A stretch of 64,000 nucleotides of DNA from positions 1,631,521 through 1,695,520 of the forward strand of contig JAJEKV010000008.1 in the NCBI GenBank assembly GCA_021234155.1. The letters are read 5' to 3'. The number at the start of each line of letters is the position of its first letter. Position 1 is the first letter of the stretch. The position numbers and the translations under genes were made by a program. The notes below the pieces were generated by a model. The model was given only the letters and a program-made list of their open reading frames with translations, had not been told where the DNA came from and searched no databases. The DNA is from Isoetes taiwanensis (lineage: Eukaryota > Streptophyta > Lycopodiopsida > Isoetales > Isoetaceae). Of this stretch, positions 2,229 to 40,885 are shown in pieces.

Positions 2229-4193
2229 CTGCAAAAGTACATACACTAGGCATGTACTTTCTCTTTGCTTTTCATTAAAAGCCATACAAAAATCCAAAAT
2301 AAAAGTCAAGGACATGGTAATATTCAAAGTTAAGGTAAAAAATGCTATCGGAGACCAATATATATATAAAAAGTTCTAAAACATACCTTATATTGAGATA
2401 TTATTATCCCCCCAGTGATACCTTTTAGGTACCTTTTTAGTCACTAAATAATACTTTTTAAGGGACACCCTAACATGCTTTTACCCCTTGAGGAATCGTG
2501 GCATGGATTCTCTTTGCCATAAAAAGCCATAAAACACATAAGGAAAATCGAAATTTTTCACGTATCCAAGCTGGCAGATGATTAACCGGTGCTAGAAATT
2601 TTTCCCTTAGGCGTCTTCTTCCGCTCGGGCAAATGATTAAAATTTTAAAATCTGGTCTGCAGAGGATCGTCAGCTATAATCTATGTGGCAGATGCTTGAA
2701 ATCGGATGGATATAGGATCATTCGACACCTTTGTAGTTTCCAATCGTGGAGCAAGGCGGATGAGACTGCCCACGAAAGCAAAAAGCCCTTCAAAATGACA
2801 TCATAAACTTGCCCCGATTTTTGGAAGGACGGAAATATTTCCCGGCACCGAAAACCCACGAAATCTTAGGAAATCAATTAAAAAAAATCCAAAAATATTT
2901 TCCACCATACCGGAAAATCCCAAATTAACAAGATTGATCATTCTTTATTATGTGTTATTCAAAGCAATTCAACTTCTTACATATTTTCGTCCTTTGTGTT
3001 TTACCCAAATCTCTTGCAGCTTCGCCTGTATTTTCTCGGCAAAGGGCCCTTGCTATATCCAAGCTCCTTGATACTTCCACCCTTTGGACTCCTTGTATAT
3101 TCATTTACGCTTGAATATCAATGTGAACAAGACAATGGTAAAAAGACACAAATAAGACACAAATAAGACAAGAGCAAATATAACCAACAAAAAGCAAGCC
3201 GTTCCAAATCTGGTATCATCGGAGAAAATTTTCAGGCATCGATTGTTCCTATTCACAACCAAATCGACCTCAAATCAGCCCGCTCCCTGAAATTTCAACC
3301 ACATCCAGCCCAAATTCGACATATTCCCCACAAGATTCATGCTTCTTCTCTTCCTTCCAAGTATCTCAACCATAGCTCAAAAGCTTACACACAAATACTA
3401 CTATATCATAGGAAACTTAACCTTTGATCCACTTTTCAATTCAACTATAGCATGCTTGAATCTGATCACAGTCTATGAAATCACAAATAGATCGGTGAAA
3501 AACCCCACCTGACAGAAAACACTTGATGCTGATCTTCATGCGGTCTCCAAGGCCTTGCATGCTCGGTGTCTCCAATCCAATCCTTCCTGCAAAAACTTGC
3601 TCCCAAAAAGCTCTCTCTCTTATCCAAAAGTTTGCTCTTAAAAAGCCTTAAAATTCCCAAAAAGCTTTTCCAAATGTCCTCTTTAATTAGCACAACCTTC
3701 AAAAATCTATTTCTAATAAAAAGGCAAAACGCTTGCTTATATGAGGCCTACATTGTATGCATGTCAAGCATGATAATAATAAATAAGTACATTGGCCCAT
3801 CAAGTGGCCAGGACCATTACAACAATTGGCCGTGAAAAACCACCCAATGGGAATACGCATAAACTAAATCACATCCTAGTGGACGCGTGACATCATCTGT
3901 ACAGAAAGAATGCTAGATACACGAGTTCTAAGGGCACATGCCCAATAGCTCACCGTCCCAATTTTTTGCGTTTGCCATGACACCGAAAGCAGAACCCAAA
4001 TTTGGTTGCCATTCCAATTGACTAACCTGGAAAGCTCAGAACAAAGGACAATCCTTCACAAATTCTAGCAAGGCAGCAGTTTCTGTTACTAATGGCGACG
4101 TGCCAGGAGTTCCAAAGGAAGAGAGCCATGTCATCAAATCTCAGCATTTAGAAATTTAGGAATGTAATGGGAAAACGATTTTTTTGTAGAGAA
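2229..4193. other. Unassigned AT-rich stretch with a dispersed repeat end
   Basis: No protein family is recognisable. Around 2,915-2,940 the sequence AATCCCAAATTAACAAGA recurs at about 57,030-57,050, with looser similarity upstream of both, so part of this stretch belongs to a dispersed repeat. Open frames at 3,481-3,835 overlap antisense to each other and look like chance. Confidence 0.35.
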
Positions 4194-4211
4194 ATTTATA
4201 AAAATGCCCCT
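4194..4211. repeat. LINE target-site duplication, left copy
   Basis: Eighteen bases (ATTTATAAAAATGCCCCT) immediately before the LINE body recur with one mismatch at 4,599-4,616 right after its tail. Confidence 0.85.
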
Positions 4212-4598
4212 GGCGCCATTGAGGATGAATGTCATGTCCTCCAGATCTGCCCAGCGTTTGCCCATATCCGAGAGCGATATGTTCGATTAGTAGTGCCTGG
4301 CCAGCCGTTGCATCAATTATTGACTACGACGTCAGTGGGTTTGTTGAGGTCATACCTCCAGGAGGTTATGGATGCACGGCCTCAGTTGTGTCCTCCAGGA
4401 CGGTATTGAACTGTCCTATACAATTGTACAGCATGCCAGCATACTTATTAATGCTAAGGTTTTTTCCTCGAAAACCCTTCGGGGCGGGGTTTTTTTAATC
4501 ATGTCAGTAATACGCTTGCTGCTCTCTTTTTTGTTTGGGTCCCATAGGCCAATTGGTCTCCATGGACGCTAAAAAATCTATTCTATTCTATTCTATAT
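4212..4598 (+). mobile_element. 5'-truncated non-LTR retrotransposon (LINE copy C)
   Basis: This is a short LINE 3' end. It keeps the C-terminal zinc-knuckle-like region (EDECHVLQICPAFAHIRERY) followed by VPGQPLHQLL, then a 3' UTR with a hairpin near 4,470-4,490 whose core is CCCTTCGGGG. It finishes with GGTCCCATAGGCC, GGACGCTAAAAAA and a (TATTC)n tail. An 18-bp near-perfect target duplication flanks it. The 5' truncation, long duplication and short-repeat tail together are the classic product of target-primed reverse transcription. The same 3' end occurs at 8.94-9.06, 21.8-21.95 and 44.5-44.61 kb. This copy looks the youngest because its duplication is nearly intact. Confidence 0.9.
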
Positions 4599-4616
4599 AT
4601 TTATGAAAATGCCCCT
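4599..4616. repeat. LINE target-site duplication, right copy
   Basis: ATTTATGAAAATGCCCCT, one mismatch from the left copy at 4,194-4,211. Confidence 0.85.
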
Positions 4617-7600
4617 ATATTTTCTTAATTTGTTAAAATGACTCTATTTATTGTCTACTTTCCTTATTTCTGGCATGCGAAGATCCATCAAGGCCATCCA
4701 AGGAAGACGATTCCGGCCAGAGATCAATCTGCATTTAAGAACTCCACGCCCATTTCAAAGAGTATCTGTCGGGATATAGGTTCGTTGCTTCCAGTTTAAC
4801 AGAGATTTAGGTCTATTCCAGAATTAACCTGATTTAGGTCTCCAAATTAAGCAAAACTCCAGGAAAGCTTCTTTGGCTGGCAGCTTCAACCATATCTTGA
4901 ATAAAAAGCAAACAAAGTAAATGTTTTCTACTAGGGTTTGAGGTAGCAAAATGGGCAACTAGTATTTGTAAATTGATTACATTTTACACAGATCTTTGTC
5001 ACTACTGTATCTTTTAATCAATGCATGCTACTTGCACATAAGAAAAAATTTCTGCAGCATTTAGAGCATATCTATAGGTAATTGTGCATCTGTGTTGAAG
5101 GAAGACCTCTGTAACCAGTCTTTATGGTTCTAGTTGCCCTCTTCTACTAATTCCAAAATCTTTTACTTCTTGGAGAAAGAACGTGCAAAGCAATAATCAA
5201 TTCTTATTTTGAAGCATTCACCATTCAAGCAAGTTGCAACATCTGAGAAATAGTGATGGTAGTTTGCAGGAAAAAGGCATATGCACATTTTGCATCAAAT
5301 CTATGCAAATTGTTGATTAGTGGCTTCGTGGAGCCATTTGACTTTTCGACAGTTAGCTATTTGAATGTTGACAATAAGCTTTGACAACAAAGTCAGAGCT
5401 TTATAAACAGTGTCAACAGAATCGGCCTGAAGGATTGATCAAATGACCAGTTCTATGCCAAGGGGTTAGGAAAGAGGAGCTCAAAACTTGACTTGAATAC
5501 CAACTCAACTCTATCTAGATGCTTCGAGCTCGTGCTGCCTCATTCCCTGGCTCTTCGTTTATTTGGTTGCAGTAGAAAAGGGAAACATATGCTTATTCTT
5601 GTTGTACAAAAATGTACGGGCATTTATACAAACTACAAAAAAAAGGGCATTGTAATAATTTTTTTCATAAAATATAGGGGCCACACCAGTGGGCCGCCTA
5701 TCAATGTTGCACCTCTACCTCAGCAAAATATGAAGTGGCTTTAATCTACACCATTAAAACACCAGTTTTATAAATCTAAGGGTTAGTAAAATTACAAAAT
5801 GGCAAGAAAATACAACGAAGATGGAGGAGGCACAAACTGAGGTCTTTCGTAGCTCTCACGTTAGCAATGGCATGCAAAGGTAAGGGCAGAAAGTTAAGCC
5901 TTGTACCCATAGTTTTCAAAACCAGCATTTCAGGGCGGCCATTGTCACCGCAAAGAATTGTCGGGTCGGATCAAGCCTCGTAAGGCAAAGAAAAGTTCAT
6001 TTTGAAATTATAGGTTGTGTGTCATCTTGACGTTATGCAGCAAATCCTTGAAGAAGTGGCAAGGAAGGAGAAAGAAGAACAAGATCGGGCAGAGGAGGAA
6101 GAGCAGAAGAAGCAGGAACAAGATCAAGTGGCCGAGGAACATGAAGAGCAGAGGCAGCCGACTCCCGAGCCAACCATCGAAGAGCATCCAGTTTCAGATC
6201 ACGCATTATATTGCTAAATGCAAGCCATATACATGAAGATGCAATTTTCAGATGCTGCCTTTATTATCCAAATGCAGGCACAAATGTATGGTTGGAAGAA
6301 ACAAGGCGAAAAACTTCGGAATTAGCGAGAAAGGCTTCGAAGAAACGAAATTGTTGAGCAGAATTTGGGATTTGAAGGCCGATTTGAAGGCCGCTTCCGG
6401 CAAGATTAATGAGGAAGAAACATAAAGAAAAGAAAAGTGAAGGGGCCTTATCTGGAAGCAGGTGCAGATCCAGCGCACCTAACGCATCCGAAGAAAAAAG
6501 AAAACAAAGAAGACAGAAACAGGGGCATAGAAACAGAGTTCAAATAGGACGTAGAAACAAATCGTAAGCTTGAAGAAAAACTTGAAAATCCCAGCCAAAT
6601 CCTACTCTCGCTGAAGAATGAATAGGGCAGCGCCAGAGCTCCAACGCCCAACACCATTAGGGGTGGCCACATGCGCGATCTTTTCTCATACTCCGGCCCA
6701 GATATGAATTTCACACGAGAGGGATACGAGAGAGGGCAAGAGTGGCTAAAGGGAGGGGAAGAATCATGGAAGAGAGGAAGAACAGCCAGATTAGACTAAA
6801 TTTTTTGGGTGCTCCCCCTTCCGGAATGGAACATTCAAAATTGGCCTCCGACCTCAAACGGAGGCCTGCACCTTCATCTTGACATCAAAATCAGAGAAAA
6901 ATTGATCATGTGGCCAGCCCTATTGCCACCCACCACCGAGACCAACTCCAAAAAAAAAAAATGGGGGGCAAATTGCTCTCGACGGTCAACACATTCCGTG
7001 TGGCGGTGACCCTCCCCCCCGCCGGTCACGCGGGCCCCACTGATCCACACTAGAATGTGCTCGTGGTGGGCATCCCATACAAAAACTTCAAAAATCCCTA
7101 TAACACACACCATTATTGTGCAGGCCGTCATTTGAAATACTTTGCCATACACTGGAGTGTGCTTTCATGCCATATCTAGTTCATATCAAGAGTTATGGAC
7201 ATAAGGTATCTAGGGTGGTTAAAGGTCATCAGATTCAAGTATTTTTATTGTTTGCGTGAGATTCTGAACCTTTTTGGTAATATTGGATTGATATTAAGGA
7301 AATTATAAAGCATCGTACAAACAAAGGTCGGTTTCAGCTCGGTTTCAGCTGGATATAAAAGGTGGCTGGATTTGACTTTCACATGCAAGCCACCAAATCC
7401 GATTAGCAGTGGTTCTGTGGATGCCGATCAGAGAAAGATGCCAGTAAACCATTTTGTTAGGTAAACCATATTCTTTCAACAAAGCTTGCAACCTAGTAAT
7501 CTGAGCAATTTTTTTCTACATTGTGTTTTTATTGATCATACCCTCAAATTTTTTAAAGCTGAGATAACCCATTGTGCATTATATATGCGCGTCTTTAATT

Positions 7601-13281: not shown

Positions 13282-16200
13282 GTGTTGTTATGTTGGGAAA
13301 TTTTTTGGGCCCTTCGGGCCCTAATAAAGGGCTTTGAGCACTAAGCAAGGCATATATGCACAAAGAAGAACTACATGCAAAAGCAGAATTAAAACAATTT
13401 AAAAGTAGAATTAGGAAATGCTGAGTAATATATATTTTCGTGGCCACAATACATGGGAATAAGTGTAGTTATCATATGTTATGAAGTTTCGCCAACCTTC
13501 AATTGCAAACCTTAATCACATAATTATGAAATCTATTAATATCATCAGAGTAAGGAATTATATTATGTAATCAAATTCAATCATTCACCAAATGACAAGA
13601 AATAAAACTGCAGCCTAATGATAGCCTTTTCAAGTTCTTATTTCATAACTGCCAACCCTAGTGACTGCACAAAAACCCTTGTAAGCACGTAAGCACGATA
13701 TTCAACATTTTCGCATTCCATCTTATCTACTTTCAGGCCTGAAAGTGCAACTTCAAGAACCTTAAAGCCAACTAGTAAGGTCTGTAGAAATTATGTGATG
13801 CCATGGTAAATTAATGACTATAGCATCCTGCATAGCCTGGTAGGCAGCCTCCATAGCTCTGGCAGCCATTTCCTCACATATTCTCCAGTGGGATCAATCT
13901 CATAGCTTTCATCCTCACCATTCACATTCTATGCTATTGTCTGCAATGGTGATATGCAACAAGCCTTGTCTTGCAGGGCGCATTCTGCTAACAGATAAAT
14001 ACTCATGAAATAAGATCCGCCAGTAAAGGTATTGCCAAAGTTGCAGCCCCTGCACATGTGGCAAATTGCGCATCTCTTATTATCGTATGCAAAATCCTTT
14101 TATATCCGCTTTAAGCCGACTTCAACTAACAAGGATGCATTGTGTTGAGGCGGCCTAATATTGTAGCATAAGAAAACAAATGTTCAATTCCACGACACGC
14201 TTTGCAAAGTGAGCAAGCTCCACGACACCTAGTTATATTTTAATTATTTACGCCATTTTCGCGAATGCTTACAAGCCGCTTTGTTCATTGAGCTGCCATG
14301 CAGTGAGCAAGCTCCACGACCTGCAAGAGAAGATAAACACCATGATATGTAAAAGGAATACAAGAACAAACAACAGGTTTAGTTTAGGGCGGATGGACAA
14401 ACAAATGGTACAGATCCGGGAGGAGCGTACCACGACTTCTACCGGATTTGCATCCATATTTCGTCCAAGCATTTCTAGTTTGCCGTCATGCCATGCTCTG
14501 CGCCGTGATTGAATGGTTGCTTTAGGGCAAAGAATGCCCTAAAATCCTATCCACGAGGCTTGCATGTTTTGCCCTAAAATAAAAAGAGGGCTTTTGTTGT
14601 GAGCCCTTGGATGTTGGACCATTGGAAAAAAAACGCTAAATCAACGACTAAGAAATGGTGCACTCTAGATGTACGCATTAGTACATCCATTCGAATACGC
14701 CATGAAATCTTAAGAAAACCTTTGTGAAAAGCGTACAAAAACACAAAGAAAACCCCCTGTTATTATGCTACATATTCATATGAGGCATCCATCGATTGGC
14801 TTGGACCATTGATTTGGAATTTACAATCCAGAGCGCGACCCGTAAAAGTGTAGAACGATATCTGTTGTTGTTGCATATGACTGTTTTCCAATGGTTAGAC
14901 TATAATTTTCATTATATATAATTATATATAGCCGGGCATCTTGTTCGAACATGCACCAAGGCCACAGTAATAAAATTTCAAGCCTCTAAAAAAGTGGCCT
15001 TGGTAGGGCTCAAAATAGAAGTGTTTTTTGATGCATCATATTATTAATAGATGTGTATGGTTTGGGAATGGTGGTTTGCAACATATAGCATAGAAGACAA
15101 CATTGTTTTAAACTATAGATAGATTAATGATTAGAATAGAATAGAATAATGGACACAACTAGAAGTTTAAAATAAACATTATATGTTTGGAAACATATAC
15201 ACACTTTTAATGAATGAACATAACACATCTTTATTACATATTCTAAACAAGATGCATCTGGGCTACTTCGATCATCAGATCCGTTGATCCTATGGCGACA
15301 GTCGAGGCCTCTGAGCGCCTCTTATTTTGATTATGGTTGTTTATGATTGAGGGTGCCTATGATTTTGAAATATAAGATACTAGTGCCCCTCTAAAATTTT
15401 GAAATATGAAATACAGAGACTCGAACCTCTACCAAAACAATTCAATATTCTAATAAGAACCTCTACCAAATGATTATTTTCAATTCTATTCTCTTTTTGC
15501 CCTACTGGGCTTACAACTTTTCTTGCAATTCTAACATATCTGCACAGCACTTCCACCTCAGCAAAACTGATGTGGCATGAGACTACATCATTGGATCTTC
15601 AGTTTTACAAATCAACAACTAGGGAAATTACAAAATGGCCAAGAAAATAACACAGAGATACTAGGCGGCGTCTTTTTTGCTTCTTCCTACATTGCAGATG
15701 AGAGCTTTGTATTACATCTAATATACTTCTATGGGGTACTTATGAGTGTCAGGAATTTTCTCCTCTGGGATGCCTGTTTGGTTTATTTTTTCTTTTTGGC
15801 TCACAGGCCTTGATTTGGGAGTTGAGTTTCCCTTTAGATTCAATCTAACCTCTTATATTCGGGCTAACATGTTGTACCATAAGTTCTTCTATTCCAGTTT
15901 CAAGGTCTAGTGGTTTTTGCACTAACTTTTGGTTATTAACCAATTATTCTCTATCAACGTCATGCCTAGGACTAAAAATAGCTTTAATTTACATTCTATC
16001 CTTCGTTTATGATAACACAAAAATAATTTTATAGATCTGATTCCTTTATCTGCATCAAGGATTGATGATGCAAAAAGGAGCATTCTTTCTTTACCATTTG
16101 CAGACCACCATATGGCCCCTAGTACATGCTATAACTTTTAGAGAAGGAGATGGAGATGAGGAAGATAGAGCAAAGTATAGATCTGTGCAAGGGAGATAGC

Positions 16201-21948: not shown

Positions 21949-24077
21949 AGATAGCCAACCACCTTTAGGTTCATCACAAGACGTATCCACTTCTCCCAGC
22001 AACTGATGCACCTTTTTTGAATAATCAATCAGTGCACTATTTGTGTCATCAAGTCTACTGTTCCAATGCTTGATGTAGTCATTGATACTATCCCTTGTTC
22101 TCTCCAAATGCTCCACTTCAGAGTATGGCTTTAGGGTTTTTGGTTGACCATTGGATATCTTCGGTAACTTGGGGTCATTCTCATCCCTTTTCCAAATTTT
22201 TGATCCTCCAAGAGGTCTCCAACAATCATCTGAATGTCTCATCTTCCATTAGAATTTTGAAATCCCTTCCTCATCATAGAATGTGAATTGTAGAGGTCTA
22301 ATGTAACCCTTAAGATCTAATGCATAATCCTCTACAAAGGCCTTCCAATCAGGCACTTCTTGTGTGAGCAACGCTATAGGAGGAGGAGAAGTGCATTGAG
22401 CAAAAAGTTCCATTACCCTTGGTAGATTTGTCACAATCTATTGTTTCTACGTGACTATACTTCCCAACCAATGCATCCACATCTTCATGCGTATATCCAG
22501 GCATTAAGAAAACCAAGTTTACTCTCTCAAAGATACTAACAGCTGTCAAATATGATAAAAATGAAAACATCCATCTATTTTTATTTTGACCAGCATAGTT
22601 GTCAAGATGCAAGAGAAATCTTCTACGTAACTCTCGAGGTTTAGGACGTGAACTTGAAGCTTCAACATGTTCACTAATATATGTTCATCTAAACCTTGCT
22701 TTATTGACCTTCTTAACATTATTAGGATGCCCATCCAACAAAGCATCAAGCAATGGCGGGATAGCTCCTTGGTTGTGGAGGTCTCCAGTATAACCATTCT
22801 CAAAGTTTCTCAGACATCTCATTACACTACTGATATGAAAGTCTAGACCATCATTCCACCACTCTAGATTAAAATAGCTATAGTAAGCTGGAGCATGCCC
22901 GTGCAAAATTGCCCCTGTCGTGGATAGTTGTAGAGGGTAAGCTCTTCCACACATTTTTGGTATATAACTATATTGTGGAAGACATGTCTTATGCTGGTCC
23001 ATCTTATTCATCATCATGTATAATGAAAAGATAGTTTTCTAGTTCCATTGTAAATAATGTCCTCCACATCCAATAAGTAGATCTACATGAAGTTGGTCGG
23101 TCAAATGATCCTTTATTTTCTCCCTTATTTTAGCCCTTAGACTTGGTTGCTTTGTCTTCTCCAGGTTCTTCAATTTAGCACACAAGTTGCACTTTGCAAA
23201 GCTGTTTGAAGTATCTACAATGACATGCTTAAAATGCTTGCTCGATAGCCTACTGAAGCTTGGTTGCAAAATAGGATTCACTTTAAGCTCACGAAAAAGT
23301 GTGTTTATTTCCTCCAAAATGTTTTTTTTTTTGGTACAACAACCCATTAAAAGATCGATAGCTCGGTGATAGAATGCTTGACTTGCAAGCAAGTGGTCTT
23401 GGATTCAATCCCTAACCTGCCCATCCAAAAGGCTCATTTCTCAACACTCCTCTCATGACAAGTGTATTCTTGGTAAATTGCTCGTGATTCAATCAATTGG
23501 TCAATATTAAAGAATAATACACATTTATTCCAGCAACATTCCATTCCTCTAACCTTTACAGAGACTCATGTGAGCAATTACCATCTGCCTTGCACCTTTT
23601 GGTAATGTGTGACCGAGTGTGCCTTCTTATTTGACCATATGCTTCTGCATGTCAAAGGAGTTGCATCAACACCCTGATTGTCAGCCACAAATTTAGAATC
23701 TGGGAAGAGGTAGTTGTCTATAAATCTAGTGCAATATATAGGCAATGGCATTAAAGTTAGAACATCCAAAGTTCTTGTACAAGCAATATATTTCTTGTCA
23801 CCTGCCCCATTCTCCTTACAATGGTCCACAAACTTGTTAATTGCACAACTATTCTGCTTGAATAAGATCAGCTAGAAGAATAATTCCTTCCCCTACTAGC
23901 TCCTTGTTGCATTGGTGTATGAGCTCCACCTTCTTGTTTCTCCAATTCACCCTCCTCTGGAGAACAATTGACTTTTTGAAACTTTTTTAGGATCACCGGC
24001 ATTCCTAGCATCATCAACTTTCCTAGGTTGGTTGATCTGGACCATATAAATATACACAGATAAGTATCTAGATACAA
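21949..24077 (-). pseudogene. Broken DUF7869-type transposase-like gene
   Basis: Consecutive minus-strand frames make one degenerate protein. From the N-terminal side they are: a charged region (23,868-24,000); a segment with DATPLTCRSIWSNKKAH (23,578-23,829); KHFKHVIVDTSNSFAKCNLC (23,150-23,250), a zinc-binding-like patch; DQHKTCLPQYSYIPK and STTGAILHGHAPAYYSYFN (22,880-23,005); then the signature LDNYAGQNKNRWMFSFL with PGYTHEDVDALVGKYS (22,440-22,610); and a C-terminal part to 21,950. DNxxGQNKN is the hallmark of the DUF7869 family, whose members look like RNase H-fold transposases. Frameshifts separate the blocks, and a tRNA-like SINE head interrupts it near 23,330-23,430. The last ~390 bp are duplicated at 44,613-45,010. 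Confidence 0.7.
23351..23423 (+). ncRNA. tRNA-Ala(TGC)-like SINE head
   Basis: A pol III A box (ATAGCTCGGTGATAGA, 23,358-23,373) and B box (GGATTCAATCC, 23,401-23,411) lie 27 bases apart, as in tRNA genes. The anticodon arm CTTGA-CTTGCAA-GCAAG places TGC in the anticodon position with four of five stem pairs. The acceptor and T stems are mostly unpaired, so this is not a functional tRNA. A T-run precedes it, and it interrupts the DUF7869 reading frame, which fits a decayed tRNA-derived SINE. Confidence 0.55.
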
Positions 24078-24339: not shown

Positions 24340-25955
24340 GCTAAACCCATGCATCAGAGCCCGCCTGGGACAACCAAGATGAGGGGCTACCATGGAAACG
24401 GCCTCGACCAGACATCACAGACAAGGGAGAGGCCTCTTCCATGAAGAGGGAGGTACGGGCCAAAGCCCAATCAACAAGACCGGCCCAACAAGCTGAGAGT
24501 CTTTGGAGCCATCTCAAGGCCGACATTGAGAATAACAATGCACGCATTGCAGGCCTGACAACAGAGATCTGGTCCTCCGGTACTCCATGTGCAAAGGTCC
24601 ATAGGGGCCACGGCCGAGCCACACCAGCCACGTACCGGGATGACGCGCAGGACACACTTGCGCTACTAGCGAGACCAGCACTACCACCACACCACCACCA
24701 AGCCACCCCGTGCCACCACCATCGGCGGCAGGCTGCAGCCCCACACGACATTGACCCACAGGCCACATGCTTTGGCGGCCGCAGGGCAGAGGCATCCGCG
24801 GTCGAGGGGGAGTCGCGGGACTAGTCGGCGGGGATGTGCATTTTAAGCCCACCAAATGTGCTACAAACCCTCAAGGCTACTCATTCTTTGCCCCAACTCC
24901 GGTTGATCCCGCTCCTACCCGGCCGGCTCCGGCTCCACCACTCATCACGCTCCCTTAGTGGCCATTGCCCCTCAATCATATGCTACCTCTGCTCCCATTG
25001 CTTCCCCTCCCCCCCCCCCCCCCCACCTACGCTCCCGCTCTTTCTCCATAACCCGGTTTGCCTATGTAACTGCTGCGACAAATAGAAAATGTGCCTTCGG
25101 GTGGTCTCCTAGAACTGTCGGAATTCCCATGGCAGAAGGGAAATAGTCTCAACTCCGTGGCTGCAGCAATGGATCTCATCTTCCTCATGGAGACATGGGA
25201 ACATGGAGGGCATAGGCTACTCGATCTTCCGGGATACCATCATTTTTCAGTATTCAATAGCTGCACAGGAAAGAAGGGATACAGGGAGGGTTGCCTATTA
25301 TTACCGGATATCTTTGATGCAGCCAATCTCTTTACACAAGACAGACAGACATAACCGGTACCTGTGGGTCCGCGTGCATAATTGTAGTGGCAGCCCTAGT
25401 CTCTTCCTGGTCGCCTGCTACTTCCCTCATGCAGAGAGCAACTTCTATCACAGCCACTCAGATGTGGATAGGATGAATCCTTATGTCGATTTGTATGATG
25501 ACATCCAGCAACACAAGCAGTTGGGTAGTGTCGTACTCCTTGGAGATTTCAATGCTCGAATAGGAGTGAAGCGACCCAGGAGACTTGACCCCCTGGCAGA
25601 TGATGTGCTGCAGCTATGTCATGCAGAGGCAACTTGGTTACGAACATCAGATGACAACTAGGTCATGCGCTTTGGTAGGTAGTTGCTTCTGCTATGCGGT
25701 ATCTTTGACTTGGTGATTTGAATGGCCTGATACAGTGGCCCTCTTCCTGCAAATGCACTTGTAGACAGGAGAACTAGAGCGGAAATGGTGGATTATCTCT
25801 TAGTGGTTGAGTAGGATATGCCTATCATCAATCACTTTCAAGTAGGTACAGATACTTGAGACGAGGAGGCTGACTCAGATCGCCTTCCACTCTACCTGAA
25901 GCTGGCCTTGCAGGTAGTCAGAACTCCCTCAATGGCAGCTTCTCGCCAACCTCAG
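24340..25955 (+). mobile_element. LINE 5' part with EEP endonuclease (copy E)
   Basis: A GC-rich leader (24,340-25,085, including a C14 run at 25,009-25,022) is followed by an endonuclease-like frame. It has LVACYFPHAESNFYH at ~25,408, then VVLLGDFNARIGVKRP at ~25,530-25,575, an EEP nuclease active-site block homologous to the one in copy A. The region also reads DLIFLMETWEHGGHR in another frame at ~25,167, corresponding to the catalytic glutamate motif. Reading is lost after 25,950 and no RT follows, so it is 3'-truncated. The leader has proline- and histidine-rich antisense frames that I regard as shadows. Confidence 0.75.
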
Positions 25956-26862: not shown

Positions 26863-29437
26863 ATGGCTCAAGCTAACAAAAGCCATTGGAAACAAAATTG
26901 GCAGGACATGAAGGCAGCATTCCTAGCCCACTATAGTTCTTCTGATGACGACCAACAACTACTGAAACAACTCAATGAGCTCCAACAACAAACCACAGAG
27001 TCTGCCAGAGACTTTGCTGAGCACTTGATTATTCTTGTCAACAAACTCAAAGAGTATCTTACGCAGAGCTAGATTTTAGTATGGTTCCTGCAAGGTTTGC
27101 CTCCAGCTATTCGTCTCATGACATAATATTTGCGTCCCAAGTCCTTAGATCACGCTATAGAATTGATGAATCATTCGGTCAATGTGTCTTTCCATAGGTT
27201 CCCCTTGTCGGACCTCCCTTTTATGCCACCTGCTCTGATTTCTCATCACCAACAGACCTCCTCATTGCAAATACTATAATATGTGCAATCGTGCCATGGA
27301 AGAATACACGCGTGCTAACCCCATGTCCTTCCACCAAAAACTTGTCTTCCAAGTCCAAACCACGTCTATGCACTTTCAGTCAACTTCACAGTCTCAACAA
27401 ACCTAGCCACAATGTGGACATTCTTCACCGCAACCTCTTAGTGTTATCATTGTAGAGAATGGGACCACACCACTACTATATGCCCTCAACTTCCTCAAGT
27501 TCAAGTTCTGCTACCTGGTACCAACCAGGCTGCTTCAGTCCGCCTTATTATGTATCAACTTTGGGTAGCGAATGGCGAACAAGGTCCACGGCCTATGCTA
27601 AACCACCACGTGCTCCCCAGCAGCAACATCAACCTACACAAGCTACCCCTCAGGCTACATTGGATCAACAGGCTTAGGAAGAGATCTATCAAGCTTTGAA
27701 TCCTTTGGTTCAACAATCCAATTGGGTTGGTTTAGTGTCACGCCAAGCCCATGGTACTCATCCCTATCATCTCACACCTCAGGACACACGGCCTGCCTTT
27801 GCAGTTACTACTGTCCCTCAGGACTCTACCACCAAAATGGCTAATTTTAAGCCAGATCTTGCCTCAGGTCATGTCCAAAGTTCGCTAGAGTATCCTTCGT
27901 CTCATGCAAGCAGCTGAAGGATGCATGCTCACCAATGTTCATGCCACCACTCAAGCTCAACAACGGGCGGCTGACCCCTCTGTCTCCATGCCAACTCCAC
28001 GCACTTGGACATATCCAAACATTGCTGCTGAAGTAGAGCGCTTAAAGGAAGTATCCACTTCCTTACCCATGGATCCAGCACCTCTTGACACGGCTAGTGC
28101 AAGGACACAAGTTTTTTTGGAGTTACAAGAGGAACTTGCAAAAATAAAGATTCCTCTTAATCTGTCCACGATCTTTAAACTTTGTCATGCTCTTTGGGAA
28201 CAATTGCTTTTGCCTACTCTTTTTGTTGGTGCAGTGGCCACTTCCACACCCATGGTTATACTCAGACCAATGGAGGTAGTGCAATCAATCTCATCACGGA
28301 TAAACTTCGCCAACAACTAGGCATCAAGCAATTATATCACGTTTTTTATGATATCAAACTTGCCAATGGTCACATCACGCGTCAACAAGATATTATTCCT
28401 CAGCTGACAATTAACATTGGCGATCTCAATTTTCCTCTGGAATTTGGTGAAGATCTGAGTGACTATGAAATGTTTGTTGGATGTCCCTTCCGTCGACAGG
28501 CTAAGAGCATACATTATTGGGCCACATGCCAACTTGTTATCACAGATGGTCATTTAAATGCTACTATAGATTTAGAAATGAGGCAAATCATCACGGTTGA
28601 GCATGTTGAACCATCTCGGTCAGATAGCGACTCTGATGATGTTTAAAGTACTTATCAAGTCCAAGCTCCTGCTGCTGAGTTGCTCTATCTACCTAATCCT
28701 GAGTATGTTGATCCTTGGGGAGACATGAATCTCGATCAGGATCATGCGATTGCTATCTTGCTTGATCTTTATCTTGTGCCTTGTAATCAGGTCAACTTAA
28801 TAGATTCCTATAAGAAGCCAGAATGACCTCCTTCTCCGTGGATACTGCAACCATCATGAACAAATCCCTTGTTGATCCAAAACAGTTGCCTCTGTTCTTC
28901 ACCACCCCTAGTGCATCATTCTTCACCACTACTAGTGCATCACTATTGGTTCTTCTACACCCACCAGCCCATATGGTAACGGATGCTAATTTTTCCGCAC
29001 ATCCAAACTCCTAAAATGGAGATCCTTGAATTAGGACAAAATCAACCCATTCGATTAGCAATTGGTCTCTTTCCATTTTAGAGAAAAAGTTGTCTGCCTT
29101 TTCAAGAAATTTGAGCATATTTTTGCGTGGAGCTACACAGATTTAAGAGGCATTAACAAAGAGTTAGATGAGCTTACTACACCCACCAAACCTGACTCTT
29201 GCCCCATCTAGCAACGACAATATCGGCTCAACCCAAATTATCGTGACCGTGTGAAAGCTGAAATCGATAAACTTCTGGTAGCAAGTCTTATTTACGAAGT
29301 CAAATATCAGAATGGGTGAGCCATATTGTTATTGCTCGTAAGCACAATGGTAAGATCCGCGTTTGCGTGGACTACATCAGGCTACAGAGCATGACCATTT
29401 TCCACTACCTGTCATGAATCAAGTTCTTGAAGAAGTG
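26863..29437 (+). pseudogene. Ty3/gypsy retrotransposon, Gag-protease-RT N-terminal part
   Basis: This is the left half of a degenerate gypsy element. Gag is represented at 26,863-27,072 and onward (WKQNWQDMKAAFLAHYSS, ARDFAEHLI), followed by a proline/glutamine-rich nucleocapsid-like region. A retropepsin-like domain lies at 28,220-28,500: GGSAINLITDKLRQQLGI, then LANGHI and DYEMFVGCPF. The catalytic Asp position reads Asn (TNGGSA), so it would be inactive. The N-terminus of reverse transcriptase begins near 29,215 (YRLNPNYRDRVKAEIDKLL) and continues to PVMNQVLEEV, where the frame stops at the insertion point at 29,437. The continuing codons are found 17.8 kb away at 47,247. In-frame stops occur throughout, so it is inactive. 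Confidence 0.88.
29433..29437. repeat. Target-site duplication AAGTG, left
   Basis: AAGTG precedes a TG dinucleotide that starts the 17.8-kb insertion. The same five bases follow its CA end at 47,242-47,246. Confidence 0.8.
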
Positions 29438-29495
29438 TGTTTGGGGTCTGGGTTTGGGAACTCCTGCAAGACAGCCCTATGTGAGGACCCTTGAA
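29438..29495 (-). repeat. 3' LTR terminus of the nested element
   Basis: Read in reverse this ends with the same bases as the host gypsy LTR end at 49,075-49,130, including GACAG and CCCAAAC blocks. Beyond about 60 bases similarity fades, so the LTR is truncated or highly diverged. Confidence 0.6.
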
Positions 29496-29816
29496 CAAGG
29501 TGACGGTGCAAACGCACTAATGACCTGTGGTGCAATTGCAGATTCCTTTTTCAAAAAAACATAAATTCGACAGTTTTGACCATTTAAAAAAAACAACTAC
29601 CAAAAAATAAAGTTGCATTCCAAATATGGCCAATTTTAAAAGTGGGCGACAGATTTTGTGTTAAGACACACTAAGAAGTGCACTTTCTTACGACACAAAA
29701 ATACAAAGGGAAGGAAGAAAGTCTATGCGCACATAGACAACAAAGTTATATTTCAATAATTTAATACAATAATATAGGCACTTAAAAAAATGTCCTTTTT
29801 TTTAGCACACATTAAA

Positions 29817-30960
29817 TATCAAGAGGAGGTTCCTTGTCAACAAGTTCGTCATCAGAATCTGCAGGAGGGAGAACCTTAGTAGAGTACATCGGGATTAACT
29901 TCCTCGATTAATGCGGCATCCTTCTCTTCCACAACCTTTTGAAGCTCTTCCACGGGGAACAAGCTCGGCGAACTTCGGCGGATCGTTGGTGTTTCAGGTG
30001 AGTGGAAAGCAAAGGCTCGAGCTTGAAGCTGCGGGATTACCATCCTTATCCTTAAGGCCAACCTCCCGCTTTTTCATCCGGGTGTCGCGCGAGAGAACTT
30101 ATTCGATTTTATATAAACCACGTAATCCTTATCAAAATCAATTGCAAAGGCAGTTGCGACCCTTTTTTAAAGCACAAGCCAAGGTGGTCCACGACCACGA
30201 AGGCATCGGCGACCCGGTCACTGGGCGTGAAAACATCTCTAAAAGGGTATTAATAAGGCATTGAGGCTTTCGATAAGGATTGACTATACGACCACGTATC
30301 TGGGTGCATTAATTTCGAATGATCTGGCGGGAATTGAAACGATTACACAAATCCATTCCGGCGGTATTATAGTGCAAAATGCTTCTGCGCCCACCAATCT
30401 TTGTGGTAACCAATGTGCATCCGTTCCCAAACATTTACAAGCCTTGCACCACCGCCATTTCCTCTTACATTCGTCTTCAACCTGCAACCGCAACCAATGA
30501 GTTATTGTGCTGCTATGCATAGCAAAAGAAATAACTTATCAAATGGTTTTGCCAGAATAACCCGACTTTAAGTGCTCTCTCATTGACTTGTACCATACCC
30601 TTTGATTACTTGAATGAAAAACTACTATCCTCCAAAGCGGTGCAGTATTTATTTTGACGAAACGTCTTAAGAAAGAATCAAATTCAGCATAAGTAAAAGG
30701 AGAATCATCTCCTCGACTATCAGGTAGCTTGAACCCATAAGGAATATCGCCAATACACAACGAATAATTGCCGATTTCAACGTATGGTCAAGTTTGACAC
30801 AATTTCCATGATATATCTGGTATAAACAATTTTGGCCAAACATGTCAAACCTTTCAAATTCTGTTGGTACAAAACTTTGCTCAGCTTCTTCCTTCTTCTT
30901 AAGCTTGGCGCGCTCTTCCTTGGCAAGTCTAACCATGTTAAGAAACCCTGGCGGCATCGG
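29817..30960 (-). pseudogene. Beta-class DNA methyltransferase (N6-adenine or N4-cytosine), frameshifted
   Basis: The minus strand encodes a methyltransferase in several frames. Order from the N-terminus: a basic helix (EERAKLKKKEEAEQ, ~30,910); LYQIYHGNCVKL (~30,800), like the YxGDxxxxL lead-in; LCIGDIPYGFKLP (~30,750), equivalent to motif IV DPPY but with Ile for the first Pro; WRIVVFHSSNQ (~30,620); CKRKWRWCKACKC (~30,460), a cysteine patch; NPYRKPQCLINTLLEMFSRP (~30,270-30,215); DRVADAF in the next frame (~30,220), equivalent to DPFxGxG; and LACALKKGRNC (~30,140). An acidic tail ends at a stop at ~29,818. Motif IV before motif I with NPxxKP defines the N6_N4_Mtase family. Such enzymes methylate DNA bases and are common in bacteria and rare in plants. 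At least three frameshifts make this copy dead. Confidence 0.72.
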
Positions 30961-30963
30961 GTC

Positions 30964-31690
30964 CTTCTTTTTCTTTTTTTCTTTTTTTGAAGAACCGTGG
31001 TCGACAATATATTAAAAGAATGGTAATGTTACAAAGCAAGTGAGGAGGAAGGAGGCGCCCAAAAGAGACAGTGATACCTCGACACTCCACAACAACCGCA
31101 ACTCTACCGCCAGACAAAAGACCATCACCATCTACCACACCCAAGAAGTCCCGCCAAATGGAAAACTTCCGCTCTACTAATCCGGGAACACCAAAAAGCT
31201 TTGAAATAGCTTGTACCGAAGTCGAGGAATCGAGAGGTCGCAGGCTTGCTGAATCCCCCGAAAGATCCACAACCGCCGCTTCCAAATCAACCACACCAAC
31301 CAAGGCACGCCGACGGATGCAAGGCTTGCTGCCCGTGACGAGCGCCAAACACCGGGATACACATGAAGCAAGCAATTGTTGGCTATTCAATCTCACCAAA
31401 ATGAGCCCCGACCCAATCCCCGGACAACCCGTAGAATGAGGGCATAAAACCGCATAATGCTCCACGCCTCACGATGAAGGCCACAACAAGGGCAAAGAGG
31501 GCTCACACCTGGCCTAAACCGACTCACAAGGACATTCACCCCGTCATGGTGATTGCACCACCCGCCCACATAAGCACCCCGAACCTTCGGTGGGAAGTGA
31601 GCTCCATGTCCACGTCCAAACCGAGCGCCATCGAGAACCCGGAAGCTGCAGAGACCACTTGCCTGAAGGGGGCAGAGTGTCTAAAACCAC
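30964..31690 (-). mobile_element. L1-type LINE 3' fragment
   Basis: Minus-strand frames encode the C-terminal zinc region of a plant L1 element (RFRPGVSPLCPCCGLHREAW near 31,500) and then PWLVWLIWKRRLWIFRG (~31,280-31,230). The 3' UTR ends TTTTAATATATT, then TTCTTC followed by an A-rich tail (plus-strand T-rich 30,964-30,991). The same terminal signature marks the copy at 12.6-13.04 kb. It interrupts the region upstream of the methyltransferase, separating it from the palindromic array and possibly from its own N-terminus. Confidence 0.75.
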
Positions 31691-31705
31691 AGAACACAGC
31701 TTTAG

Positions 31706-32048
31706 TAAGAACAAGAAGACTAAAGTTCAAAGTGTCTTCCTATGCGCCAAGATAGCAACATAGTAACAGACTTCTTGTGGTGCTATGTCCGCAGATAGAC
31801 ACAAACGAAAGCGACTTTAGTAAGAAGAAAAAATAGAAGTTCCGAGTGTTAGCCTATGCGCGCATAGCACCACAGTAACAGACTTCTTGTAGCGCGAACG
31901 CGCGCATAGCCACACAACAAGAAAACATCTTTAATAAGAAGAAAAAACAGAAGTTCCGAGTGTTAGCCTATGCGCGCATAGCACCACAGTAACAGACTTC
32001 TTGTAGTGCTATGCGCGCATAGGCGTGTACACAACAAGATAAGTACGG
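31706..32048. repeat. Tandem array of ~115-bp units containing CTATGCGCGCATAG
   Basis: Three units start at 31,706, 31,821 and 31,935 (spacing 115 and 114). Each carries TAAGAA(C/G)AA, AAGTTC..AGTGT, the palindrome CTATGCGCGCATAG or a decayed version, and CAGTAACAGACTTCTTGT. Units 2 and 3 are almost identical. The same palindrome builds a different array at 39.86-40.15 kb. Confidence 0.88.
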
Positions 32049-32099
32049 GAACAACAAATTTTGCCGGTTCAGTAAAATTGAGCGTATTGGTTTATCTTT

Positions 32100-32459
32100 T
32101 CATCGGAGCGACCATGTAGGGTATAATTCTTTAACTTTTTCCTGTGTGTCACGGTTAAGGTGGACCATGAGTTTTCTGCCGACAGAGTGCACAATCCTTT
32201 TGGGCGAAAAAGTAAGGAGTGTTAAAAACTCGGAACGTAAACTACCGGCAAGAACCGTCTTTGAAACGTAAACTACTTGTTTGAATTCACCGTGCATCTC
32301 TTCCAAGCTAAAGTGGCCATTCACCACCTTCTGCAGCACCTCACAATCTTTTTCTGTATTTTTTAGACCTTGCATTTCCCTCCAGACCATGATACCCATG
32401 TCCTTCTGTTTTGCTTTTTGGATCCTTCACCTTTCCTTTGGATTTCAGTGTACCCTCAG
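32100..32459 (-). pseudogene. Unidentified coding remnant upstream of the methyltransferase
   Basis: A minus-strand frame of about 100 codons reads like a real protein (EEMHGEFKQVVYVSKTVLAG, SEFLTLLTFSPKRIVHSVGR, LNRDTQEKVKELYPTWSL). I do not recognise the family. It lies upstream of, and on the same strand as, the methyltransferase blocks, separated only by the palindromic array and the L1 insertion. It may be the N-terminal domain of the same gene. Confidence 0.5.
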
Positions 32460-32548
32460 CAAACATATCAAACTTTACTTTTCTCTTGGATGAAGCTTGA
32501 AGTCCGGTAAGTGCCACCTTTTTTTTTTTTTTTTTTTTTGATCAAGTT

Positions 32549-37600: not shown

Positions 37601-39740
37601 ATGATTAGTACCCTTTACACAATTGCTCTTTCCACTATTCCAACAACGTGGAAAGCCTCTCTAGAATATCTTCTTCTTCTTTGGCACTTAGAGTGTAAAC
37701 CACTCCCCGCTTAACAACGTGCTTTGCTTTGAACCAACGACTTTGTTCTTTGCAACTTGAGTGGCATAAACAATTGCTTTATTTCCTCTACAAAACTTGT
37801 AGCTGGATTTACAATTCACCAACTTCTCATAGTATGTCCCTTCTATGACCTCATCCCATTTCACAAACTTACGCCCCTTGCATATCTACAAAGTCTTCTA
37901 ACACCAAGTACTTAGCTTTGGTACATAGGATAAGGTAGAATTTCACATTCTCGTGATTGTTATTTGGAGCTACCAGCGCAAAAGACATCACCTATAGATA
38001 CTTGCATGCTACATAAGTCAGTACGCTTAATATATGCTTCTTCTCCTTCATCATGTACTTCTTCTTCAACAATAGCTTTGATGGGTATTGCCACAACTAG
38101 TTCAAACTTCTTAGTATATGATACATTGGGGCAAGATTCCCAATTCAAATCTAAACAATATGTGCAAAAAAGCAAGAGAGGTTTGACGACGTAAATGTGT
38201 CATGTGATTTGAACACCCATGGAAACAATGAAGGTTTCTAGGACCTTCAATAGGACGTGCTTCCCGCTGATTTTTTCCGGTCCACTTGTCCTATTTCAAC
38301 CTCTCAAAAAGTTCTACTTACAGTTTGAATCTTCTTTTTTATATGTTGTGGGTGCTTCTTTGTTGACATATGCTTTAGCCATTCCACCACCTCGTGTGCA
38401 TTGGTCATCTTGCTGCCCTTCAATTGTCTTTGCTCTCAAAGCCCTCTTTATTCTTGCTCCGCACCATCATGTTCCCCCCTTCCCATGGCCGAGCACCAAA
38501 AGTTCCACATCATGTCTAAACTCGTTAAAGATTTGAATCTAGCATCAAAGTAAAATGATTTTTTACCTTTGAACCAGGAGGTCGCACCATCCGAGAAGAC
38601 ATAATGCTTCTTCAAAGTGATTTCCTTCTCTTGCATCAAATGATTGTGTAAGAGAAAGCAATCTTTACACAAACAAAGAATCATGTTTTCTCGTCATCGG
38701 ATATATAAAAATGTTCTTCCTTGATCATTTTTGTCTCAGAATCCCTTCTATATGTGAGGTACACAAGAATAGTGATTCGCTCATTATGCCAATGCTTGTT
38801 GGACTTCATTTGCTCCTTGAAAGAGTAATTCTCTGCAAAGTCAACCACCGATACAATAGTATCATCAGAAAACCGTTCGATGGTTGTCTAAACATGGCTT
38901 GGTCGCCATTTATACCTGAAATTATGTGTCACAAACTCCTTTGCTTTAGATCTGAAGGTTTCCATCAAAACATTGGGAGAAGTCGTAAATATTGATGCTC
39001 AATTCTTTTTTTTGGGTTTGCCATTTTATCCTTACCAATTTCAATGTAGTCTATGTTCTCCCAAGTGATTTTTGAGGTAATTGTCCTTTGTTTCTTCTTT
39101 TGGACACCTTTCCATTTTGTCCACACCACATTTCTTTGCAGTTCCTCGACAAGCATGCTTCATTGTGCCACTCCTCACCTTAGGGCTTTGGGCAAACCAT
39201 GCTTCTCCACATGTCATTGTTAGACTGCCAAACATGTCTTGCTAAGCAAAACCTATGATGTCTTAGACCAAACACGTTGGTAAAGTCTTCTCGTGCAGTA
39301 AAATAACACTTACAATTTTACTCTTCATTCTTGCCTGAATGTAGCCTTGCATATCTTCTGGAGAAGACAAGCTCAGCTTAAAAAATGAACTATCCACAGA
39401 ATATACATGTTCACTGCCCTTGGTGGTGGTTGTGCACTTGATGTGGAACATACCAAACAGATCAACATCTATAAGCCTGCCACATCTTCTGAAGCTTTCT
39501 AGGTCTTGTGTTTGCTTGCCGGTCTCAGAACAAATGTATAATTATAAAAAATGTGCAGTTGCTGGATCACCGGTACCCTTGACAAGCAACCACTGCTGAT
39601 CCTTACAAAAATAGGAGCCATCTTCCTCCACGAAATTGTCGGGCTGACTTGGAGCGGAACATCCTTGGATCCTTGATTGTCCTCTTCTTCTGCCGCCTTT
39701 GGGAGGATCCACCTGCATCATCCTGGCTACCCCGTGCAAG
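37601..39740 (-). pseudogene. RNase H-fold transposase-like gene, degenerate
   Basis: Successive minus-strand frames form one protein. N-terminal blocks: PDNFVEEDGSYFCKDQQWLL (~39,640) and FHIKCTTTTKGSEHVYSVDS (~39,430). A basic middle lies at 38,965-39,235. Next come frames resembling a DFAENY-type block (~38,850) and a conserved core LMQEKEITLKKHYVFSDGAT, WFKGKKSFYFDA, MMWNFWCSAMGRGEHDGA at 38,448-38,640. Beyond, a VSRTFWEVEIGQVDR-like segment (~38,310) and a tail to ~37,600 are broken by stops. The FSDGxxxxFKG...HGKGEHDGAG pattern is one I associate with a plant and protist family of putative DDE transposases; the family name is not certain. It lies directly beside the palindromic array at 39.86 kb. 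Confidence 0.6.
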
Positions 39741-39854
39741 GCTTCTCTTCTTACTGAAATATTAAGAACAGTAAAGTATTAAGACATCATTTGCCTATGC
39801 GCGCATAGCCAACCAATTCAAAAAATCTTGATCCCAATAGTGACAGGCATACTA

Positions 39855-40154
39855 CAAAAGAAAAGCTTTGAGCCCATGCGCGCATAGTCAAGCTTAAGAA
39901 AAAAGCTTTGTGTCTATGCGCGCATAGGGAAAGCATAAGAAAAAAAGCTTTGTGTCTATGCGCGCATGGGCAAAGCTTAAGAAAAAAGATTTGTGTCTAT
40001 GCGGGCATAGGAAAAGCTTAAGAAAAAAAGCTTTGTGTCTATGCGCGCATAGGGAAAGCTTAAGAAAAAAAGCTTTGTCTATGCGTGCATAGGCAAAGCT
40101 TAAGAAAAAAAACTTTGTGTCCATGCGCGCATTTTGTGTCTATCTTGGCGCATA
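39855..40154. repeat. Tandem array of ~42-bp units containing CTATGCGCGCATAG
   Basis: About seven units read AAGAAAAAAAGCTTTGTGT, then the palindrome CTATGCGCGCATAG, then GGAAAGCTT. Units differ at single positions (ATGCGGGCAT, ATGCGTGCAT). A further unit lies at 40,797-40,885 beyond an inserted element. The minus strand is open across the array and would give a repeating Phe/Leu-rich peptide (AFFLKLSLCAHRHK), which I regard as incidental. Confidence 0.88.
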
Positions 40155-40796: not shown

Positions 40797-40885
40797 AAAA
40801 GCTTTGTCTATGCGCGCATAGGCAAAGCAAGGACAAGCACTAAAAAAAACCAGTGTTTCCATGCGAGCATAGACAAACCCAATCA
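40797..40885. repeat. Continuation of the 42-bp palindromic array
   Basis: Two units (AAAGCTTTGTCTATGCGCGC and a diverged CCATGCGAGCATAG) resume after the inserted retroelement. Confidence 0.8.

Follow-up and report, generated by a model that had tools for sequence, protein, structure and literature searches.

A 64,000-nucleotide stretch of the Isoetes taiwanensis (Isoetaceae) genome (GenBank assembly GCA_021234155.1, contig JAJEKV010000008.1, positions 1,631,521 to 1,695,520 of the forward strand; hereafter "the window") carries a decayed gene for a beta-class DNA amino-methyltransferase on its minus strand, between 29,812 and 32,472. Under the customary names of methyltransferase motifs (IV, I, FxGxGTT), motif IV stands before motif I, which is the permuted order of the beta class, and the reading is broken over three frames: GDIPYGF lies in frame 0, NPYRKP..EMFSRP and LACALKKGRN in frame 2, and DRVADAF in frame 1. 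A preliminary description of the locus, made from its sequence, had predicted this motif order with frameshifts, membership of the N6_N4 methyltransferase class (PF01555), and a setting in mobile DNA that is odd for a plant. The motif order is as predicted; the other two claims are borne out by relatives of the gene in the same genome, which sit in DNA transposons and in which a ParB-like exon accompanies the methyltransferase exons.

In the profile search that the preliminary description had proposed, the window copy itself stayed below the threshold: a stitched 72-residue C-terminal piece matched PF01555 at E = 7e-4 with 20 bits, against a curated cut-off of 26.7. A stitched 283-residue reading had no Pfam match, and the stitched protein had no homologue at E <= 0.01, nor at E <= 10, among 5.8 billion proteins. 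The relatives, in contrast, passed. A PF01555 search of the genome gave 1443 first-look candidates, and all 150 that were scored lie above the cut-off. A search with the window motif IV region gave 1414 candidates, of which 150 were scored; the window ranked first, followed by 11 copies that have 83-86% identity to this region and are stop-free within the match. These copy counts are lower bounds. Loci compared at the DNA level comprise an E family (19 loci), the window family (L033-L043, the 11 copies ranking directly below the window, and no random sample), and L026, which was set apart. Searches with exons of these relatives recover the window copy (E = 9e-26, 8e-15 and 4e-9), exon hidden Markov models (HMMs) lead to the same places, though not to exon 1 or the ParB exon, and the nearest family copies have 86-90% DNA identity to the window downstream of 30,974. 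Given these E-values and this identity, the window gene is not a chance similarity.

Anatomy of the gene in related copies

The order in E copies is exon 1, the ParB exon, exon 3, exon 4, methyltransferase exon 1 (ADLPYGF) and methyltransferase exon 2 (DAFSGSGTT). From this order and from homology we infer that the exons form one gene. Copies with open exons were found elsewhere in the genome, as the preliminary description had anticipated; not all E copies are intact, and E24 is without the PYGF of motif IV. Across the relatives, ADIPYGF or ADLPYGF is followed by DAFSGSGTT, the same order as GDIPYGF and DRVADAF in the window. Two details of the preliminary description need correction in the light of these relatives. 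The proposed cysteine patch, CKRKWRWCKACKC, is what frame 0 spells at a place where the coding frame is frame 1 (RLKTNVRGNGGGARL), and the possible "N-terminal domain" at 32,100-32,459 corresponds to linker exons 3 and 4, between the ParB and methyltransferase parts of the same gene. The preliminary description had also missed the ParB-like domain, the inverted ends, the palindrome arrays and an earlier algal report of the protein class.

The assignment of the enzyme comes from the relatives. Among these, methyltransferase exon 2 matches PF01555 at E = 5.7e-19, and an L033 exon does so at E = 2.6e-15. Compared with solved structures, a spliced relative matched CcrM best (E = 5e-12, residues 51-297), then MboIIA and RsrI, and all nine matches are named DNA modification methylases or plainly "Methyltransferase". 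The preliminary description had set its assignment against an RNA-modifying or host enzyme; such an identity was rejected on the PF01555 scores, the structure matches and the many copies. A viral origin was likewise rejected: none of the 48 pattern matches from one scan of viral contigs (alignment A2) was a relative. Catalytic core and motif order are shared with CcrM (PDB 6pbd) and with further N6-adenine methylases of the beta class. The usual motif IV of these enzymes is DPPY, whereas the Isoetes gene has D[IL]PY, introns, and ParB-like and linker exons. Motif IV is by convention a guide to N6-adenine specificity and no proof of it. Because of D[IL]PY and of CcrM as the best match, we lean towards N6-adenine rather than N4-cytosine as the predicted target.

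Searching the protein collection with the spliced relative gave 8 matches at E <= 0.001, 3 of them with Ginkgo-style gene ids: P0001 (Gb_37443), P0002 (Gb_17912) and P0003 (Gb_10123), the species being judged from the id prefix. Two of these three models, P0001 and P0003, hold the ParB-like and methyltransferase parts in a single protein. Motif IV reads DIPH in P0001 and DISQ in P0002, and the stretch is missing in P0003; because the catalytic motif is altered or missing, the models may be defective. In Isoetes taiwanensis, the ParB-like domain was recognized by sequence profile or fold match, and the fold matches of its structure model include KorB, an entry titled as a transcriptional repressor.

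Relatives in DNA transposons

The relatives sit in DNA transposons of roughly 7.5-9 kb with inverted ends. E23 has 8,084 bases and E13 has 7,475 between imperfect inverted ends (AACAAGATTGCATATTAAACGGGAG on the left side in E23), and 4-bp duplications, ATAT and CTAA, flank these two, the only copies with both ends read. A target-site duplication of 4 bp is usual in the Sola superfamily at large. For Sola2, it is stated in the available text of PMC3627910. The opposite strand of E23 has a gene with DUF7869 (E = 1e-52), which, because of its position, is taken to be the putative transposase; a structure model of this open reading frame had a predicted local distance difference test (pLDDT) score of 34 and was not used, and the term DUF7869 was not met in the literature searched. 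Just inside the right terminus, E copies also have a 28-bp perfect or near-perfect hairpin (AAACGGGAGTGCTGC..., for example at E23 15,986-16,013); L026 and the window family have a weaker version of it.

For the window family, the terminus downstream of the methyltransferase gene was located at window position 29494. Seven of the 11 family alignments stop exactly there, L041 stops at 29493, L033 and L039 end at +6 and +12 bases, and L040 stops at 29750, so that 10 of 11 copies reach the terminus. The end sequence is similar across copies and the flanks are different. Genome-wide, the 26-bp end has 445 matches at <=3 mismatches, as opposed to 0 for a reversed control. Among the 100 end matches listed, inward pairing was assessed for the 51 on contigs with several, together with nearby methyltransferase matches from the motif IV search. 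This gave 19 inward pairs of less than 30 kb, 12 of which enclose a family methyltransferase, 9 of these 12 spanning 8.0-9.2 kb. Six others of the 19 pairs, of 2.1-3.0 kb (C933, C952 twice, C970, C1034, C1056), are without a methyltransferase match and are probably non-autonomous derivatives of the window family; the last pair, of 19 kb, is also without such a match. The alternative that the window gene is the pseudogene of a non-mobile host methyltransferase could appeal to the Ginkgo-style gene models of the same architecture. It is highly improbable given the shared ends before different flanks, the inverted pairs around the gene and the at least 150 scored copies.

Family-specific palindromes

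Three different palindromes were found in the three groups compared. In the E family, TATTCCGGAATA occurs at <=1 mismatch in all 19 loci, with 1 to 21 sites each, within AAAGTGTATTCCGGAATACACTTT. There are 235 such sites in 124,671 element bases and 0 in 95,329 flank bases; in these counts, L010 and L011, without a right end by pattern, were taken as all inside, and loci without a known left end as inside from the first base. The window family has TATGCGCGCATA, with 81 sites in 31,006 element bases and 0 in 4,403 flank bases, and L026 has TATGAATTCATA, with 7 sites at <=1 mismatch. The 220 kb of E loci contain a single site of the L026 type, and no other match across families was seen. Two other repeated palindromes, GACTCGCGAGTC (four times at about 61-bp spacing in L040 3021-3213, gene orientation, past the end of its window match) and GTCGCATGCGAC (three times in L020 7251-7567, gene orientation, outside the L020 element), may be markers of additional families of such elements.

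With one exception, in the window family, the sites lie outside the exons of the gene. None of the 235 E sites falls in the six exons of the ParB-methyltransferase gene (39,196 matched bases). Here "exons" are the matches to exon queries, of which there were six, or five in the case of the window family, and the transposase-side gene is left out. The DNA ahead of exon 1 holds 101 of the E sites, that between exons 3 and 4 holds 81, that separating the two methyltransferase exons holds 33, and 15 are found between the ParB exon and exon 3; the remaining 5 precede exon 4 at places without a match to any earlier exon. In the window family, 80 sites are outside exon matches, and 9 sites are downstream of methyltransferase exon 2. 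Since the sites cluster ahead of exon 1, in the space separating the divergent genes, and within introns of the gene itself, the protein might repress its own element, with ParB at the palindromes limiting transcription as copy-number control and methylation serving as a repressive mark. We regard such self-repression as unlikely. It would be in keeping with KorB among the fold matches, and with the bdelloid rotifer methyltransferase N4CMT, which according to the available text of PMC8885841 deposits N4-methylcytosine (4mC) at transposons in a silencing context; against it, high copy number and strong purifying selection fit a protein that aids spread.

A different view is that the palindromes are sites for the transposase or host factors, and that the ParB-methyltransferase has another job, for example methylation during transposition. 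Arrays in transposons can bind transposase, the E element has the DUF7869 gene as a second gene, and in the window family some sites, the 9 in the 3' part, are indeed close to the element end. In E23, however, sites occur only at 3585-6994 of 8084, and both the transposase-side gene (5' end 3534) and the final 1.09 kb are free of them, unlike the case of end-bound sites; one E13 site (3402) is just inside the transposase-side stop-to-stop frame, which ends at 3443, and is probably upstream of its start. We consider this view doubtful, to about the same degree as self-repression.

It is also conceivable that the arrays are functionless minisatellites with chance palindromes, spread by replication slippage. 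The arrays are indeed tandem, with a 41-42 bp period. In 32 control pieces of 3,219 bases, 31 are without a repeated exact palindrome and one has one three times, which lends the minisatellite view some weight, while repeats of an exact palindrome number 2 to 8 in window-family copies and 1 to 5 in 17 E copies. The sites appear nearly invariant, in part because they were selected at <=2 mismatches. Against chance, the E gene has the same motif at separate places, ahead of exon 1 and within three of its introns, and it is kept in L010 and L014 despite a third-position difference of up to 0.64. We judge the minisatellite explanation improbable.

Selection on the protein

The protein is under purifying selection, being conserved where silent sites are heavily changed. 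For codon positions 1, 2 and 3, median differences in E methyltransferase exon 2 are 0.070, 0.028 and 0.428 (136 pairs, 17 copies), and in E methyltransferase exon 1 they are 0.182, 0.091 and 0.567 (78 pairs, 13 copies); L026 and the partly out-of-frame L027 are left out of these E counts. Exon 1 of the window family gave 0.021, 0.014 and 0.103 (45 pairs). Between L010 and L014, 64% of exon 1 third positions differ, and the two copies keep 7 and 18 palindrome sites. Ratios of nonsynonymous to synonymous change (dN/dS) used 20, 106, 3, 42 and 27 of a possible 91, 153, 15, 45 and 28 pairs of stop-free copies, with pairs dropped when saturated or at dS <= 0.02. Because so many pairs were unusable, the codon-position counts are the better evidence.

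Comparison with known systems

The protein class and the basic idea are already in print for algae. The available text of PMC12477816 describes a 21.5-kb transposon of Ectocarpus, Sola1-1_Ec32, that encodes a ParB-methyltransferase protein, with similar ones in green and red algae. As there, the Isoetes elements are DNA transposons in which a ParB-like domain and a predicted 4mC or N6-methyladenine (6mA) methyltransferase are on the strand opposite the transposase; E23 has all of these features, given one gene for both domains and DUF7869 as the putative transposase. The Isoetes elements differ in being from a vascular plant, in their size of about 7.5-9 kb, in having DUF7869 on the other strand (E family), and in their family-specific palindromes, which are absent from the algal description in the available text of PMC12477816. 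In the literature searched, which left most subscription papers outside, no report was found of ParB-methyltransferase transposons in vascular or other land plants, nor of the palindromes.

The arrangement of the palindromes recalls the VANC proteins of Arabidopsis VANDAL transposons. VANC proteins bind family-specific short motifs in non-coding element DNA and remove silencing marks, according to the available portions of PMC5735166 and PMC10398659. In both cases, family-specific motif arrays lie in introns, intergenic and terminal non-coding DNA, and in VANDAL elements they have been changed by tandem repetition (PMC5735166, in the part available). That part of PMC5735166 does not describe VANC as a methyltransferase or as ParB-like, and its motifs have one orientation and are no palindromes. 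We treat the resemblance as an analogy of layout and not as homology. Rotifer N4CMT is likewise a bacterial-type N6_N4 methyltransferase in a eukaryote and linked to transposons, but in the available text of PMC8885841 it acts as a host enzyme acquired by capture, with SPPY as its motif and a chromodomain, whereas the Isoetes enzyme is transposon-borne with D[IL]PY and ParB. Pfam scans of the relatives found no chromodomain.

A possible self-addressed anti-silencing system

The evidence leans, if only slightly, towards reading the window feature as a fossil DNA transposon with an accessory ParB-like and beta-class methyltransferase gene that acted as a self-addressed anti-silencing system. Under this model, the exons would make one protein in Isoetes taiwanensis, as in the Ginkgo-style models, where alone the single protein is seen. 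Much as ParB recognizes parS, the ParB-like part would read the palindromes that belong to its family, and it would bring the methyltransferase to the promoter and introns of the element. The mark, or the binding itself, could then keep the element active against silencing by host cytosine methylation, as VANC does for VANDAL. Anti-silencing is placed before self-repression because the layout is VANC-like with a base-modifying enzyme attached. A more specific version is tentative, and we see it as possible rather than probable: the protein would write 6mA or 4mC on the promoter and introns via a family palindrome code, shielding the element from 5-methylcytosine (5mC), and palindrome and reader would diversify together. 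If they change together, sibling families would for that reason not cross-activate. A "divergent ParB" in L016 (45%) was rejected as such; L016 is a frameshifted E-family copy with 94% DNA identity to L015 and L017, and is therefore no argument against pairing of ParB and palindrome.

Several observations count against the anti-silencing model. The ParB structure model is moderate, with a pLDDT of 69 for the best of five and 51-54 for the other four, a predicted template modelling score of 0.63, and 8 similar sequences; it had no Foldseek match at E <= 0.001, and neither the L026 nor the L033 ParB exon, taken by itself, matched a ParB profile. Residues 170-211 are below a pLDDT of 50, and the model therefore leaves out any DNA-reading part beyond the ParB fold. 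Another element protein or host factors could be the readers of the palindromes. Only three palindromes were read, the third from a single locus; 1 of the 81 window-family sites is within an exon match; and when exact repeats within 3,219 bp are counted, no palindrome recurs in 3 of 17 E copies. Constraint on methyltransferase exon 2 is weaker in the window family, where the median dN/dS is 0.37 and the maximum 1.12. Finally, the central CpG accounts for 140 C>T or G>A substitutions in 274 E sites taken at <=2 mismatches, whereas no other change is seen more than 13 times. This is CpG decay as host CG methylation leaves it, and E sites were therefore not always free of 5mC. That the other ten positions hardly vary is in part a product of the mismatch limit.

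Features of the window

The window copy is dead: both methyltransferase exons have frameshifts and stops, there is a 705-bp insertion (Table 1), and neither a ParB exon nor a second, left terminus was found in the window. The insertion is possibly a fragment of a long interspersed nuclear element. The exon 1-like stretch, about 6.8 kb from exon 3, probably belongs to the same gene; it was missed by the E-family exon 1 HMM and, at E <= 0.05, by Ginkgo exon 1. The ParB exon expected between this stretch and exon 3 was not found, the window-family ParB exon having no match in the window at E <= 0.05. A candidate at 38,878-38,711 (E = 0.21) was dropped, as it reads as part of another coding remnant. 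A coding-like remnant at about 38,280-38,900 on the minus strand (VDFAENYSFKE...), in the interval from exon 3 to the exon 1-like stretch, looks like yet another mobile-element protein. The window has seven exact TATGCGCGCATA sites between 31,855 and 40,820.

Table 1. Positions in the window of the element terminus, gene remnants and palindromes
Feature	Position	Strand	Remarks
Terminal 54 bp, end downstream of the methyltransferase gene	29494..29547	-	AGGAATCT...GCACCGTCACCTTGTT; outer 26 bp are the family terminal inverted repeat
Single palindrome TATGCGCACATA, one mismatch, 3' part	29724..29735		family copies have 9 sites downstream of exon 2
Methyltransferase exon 2 (motif I, S-adenosylmethionine-binding side)	29812..30483	-	frameshifts and stops
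Shortened palindrome CTATGCATAG, intron between methyltransferase exons	30513..30522		exact TATGCGCGCATA there (position 1750) in 8 of 11 copies
Methyltransferase exon 1 with motif IV GDIPYGF	30557..30981	-	frame shift near 30,775-30,772
705-bp insertion	30975..31679	-	family-copy positions 1295-1297 adjacent across it; one end A-rich
Tandem array with TATGCGCGCATA at 31855, 31969 and 32010	31691..32021		intron before methyltransferase exon 1
Exon 4 (linker), broken	32067..32177	-	from exon comparison with relatives
Exon 3 (linker), broken	32277..32472	-	E = 1.6e-26 against family exon
Exon 1-like stretch	39320..39613	-	E = 4.4e-7 against L026 exon 1; E = 0.012 against E23 exon 1
42-bp-period array (TATGCGCGCATA and versions with 1-2 mismatches)	39796..40133		upstream of exon 1-like stretch, like E-family promoter arrays
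Isolated exact TATGCGCGCATA	40809..40820		weaker sites at 40860 and 41477

Other probable mobile-element remains lie at lower coordinates in the window. Three adjoining open pieces at 22349-23404 on the minus strand are DUF7869-like (E = 4e-16 and 0.015, the third piece without a match) and look like a transposase-like relic; their strand and place do not pair with the methyltransferase gene. On the plus strand, at 25113-25661 and 28179-28646, are endonuclease-like (Exo_endo_phos, E = 0.0064, below the cut-off) and retropepsin-like (by eye) frames, probably retrotransposon remains.

Implications

Adenine or N4-cytosine methylation in the DNA of land plants is disputed. The elements described here lead to a prediction at the level of single sites: any such mark is expected on or close to TATTCCGGAATA, TATGCGCGCATA and TATGAATTCATA inside the elements. 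This prediction comes from a high-copy gene family under purifying selection, and the Isoetes elements may represent a second, independent case of VANC-like self-protection via family-specific repeat motifs.

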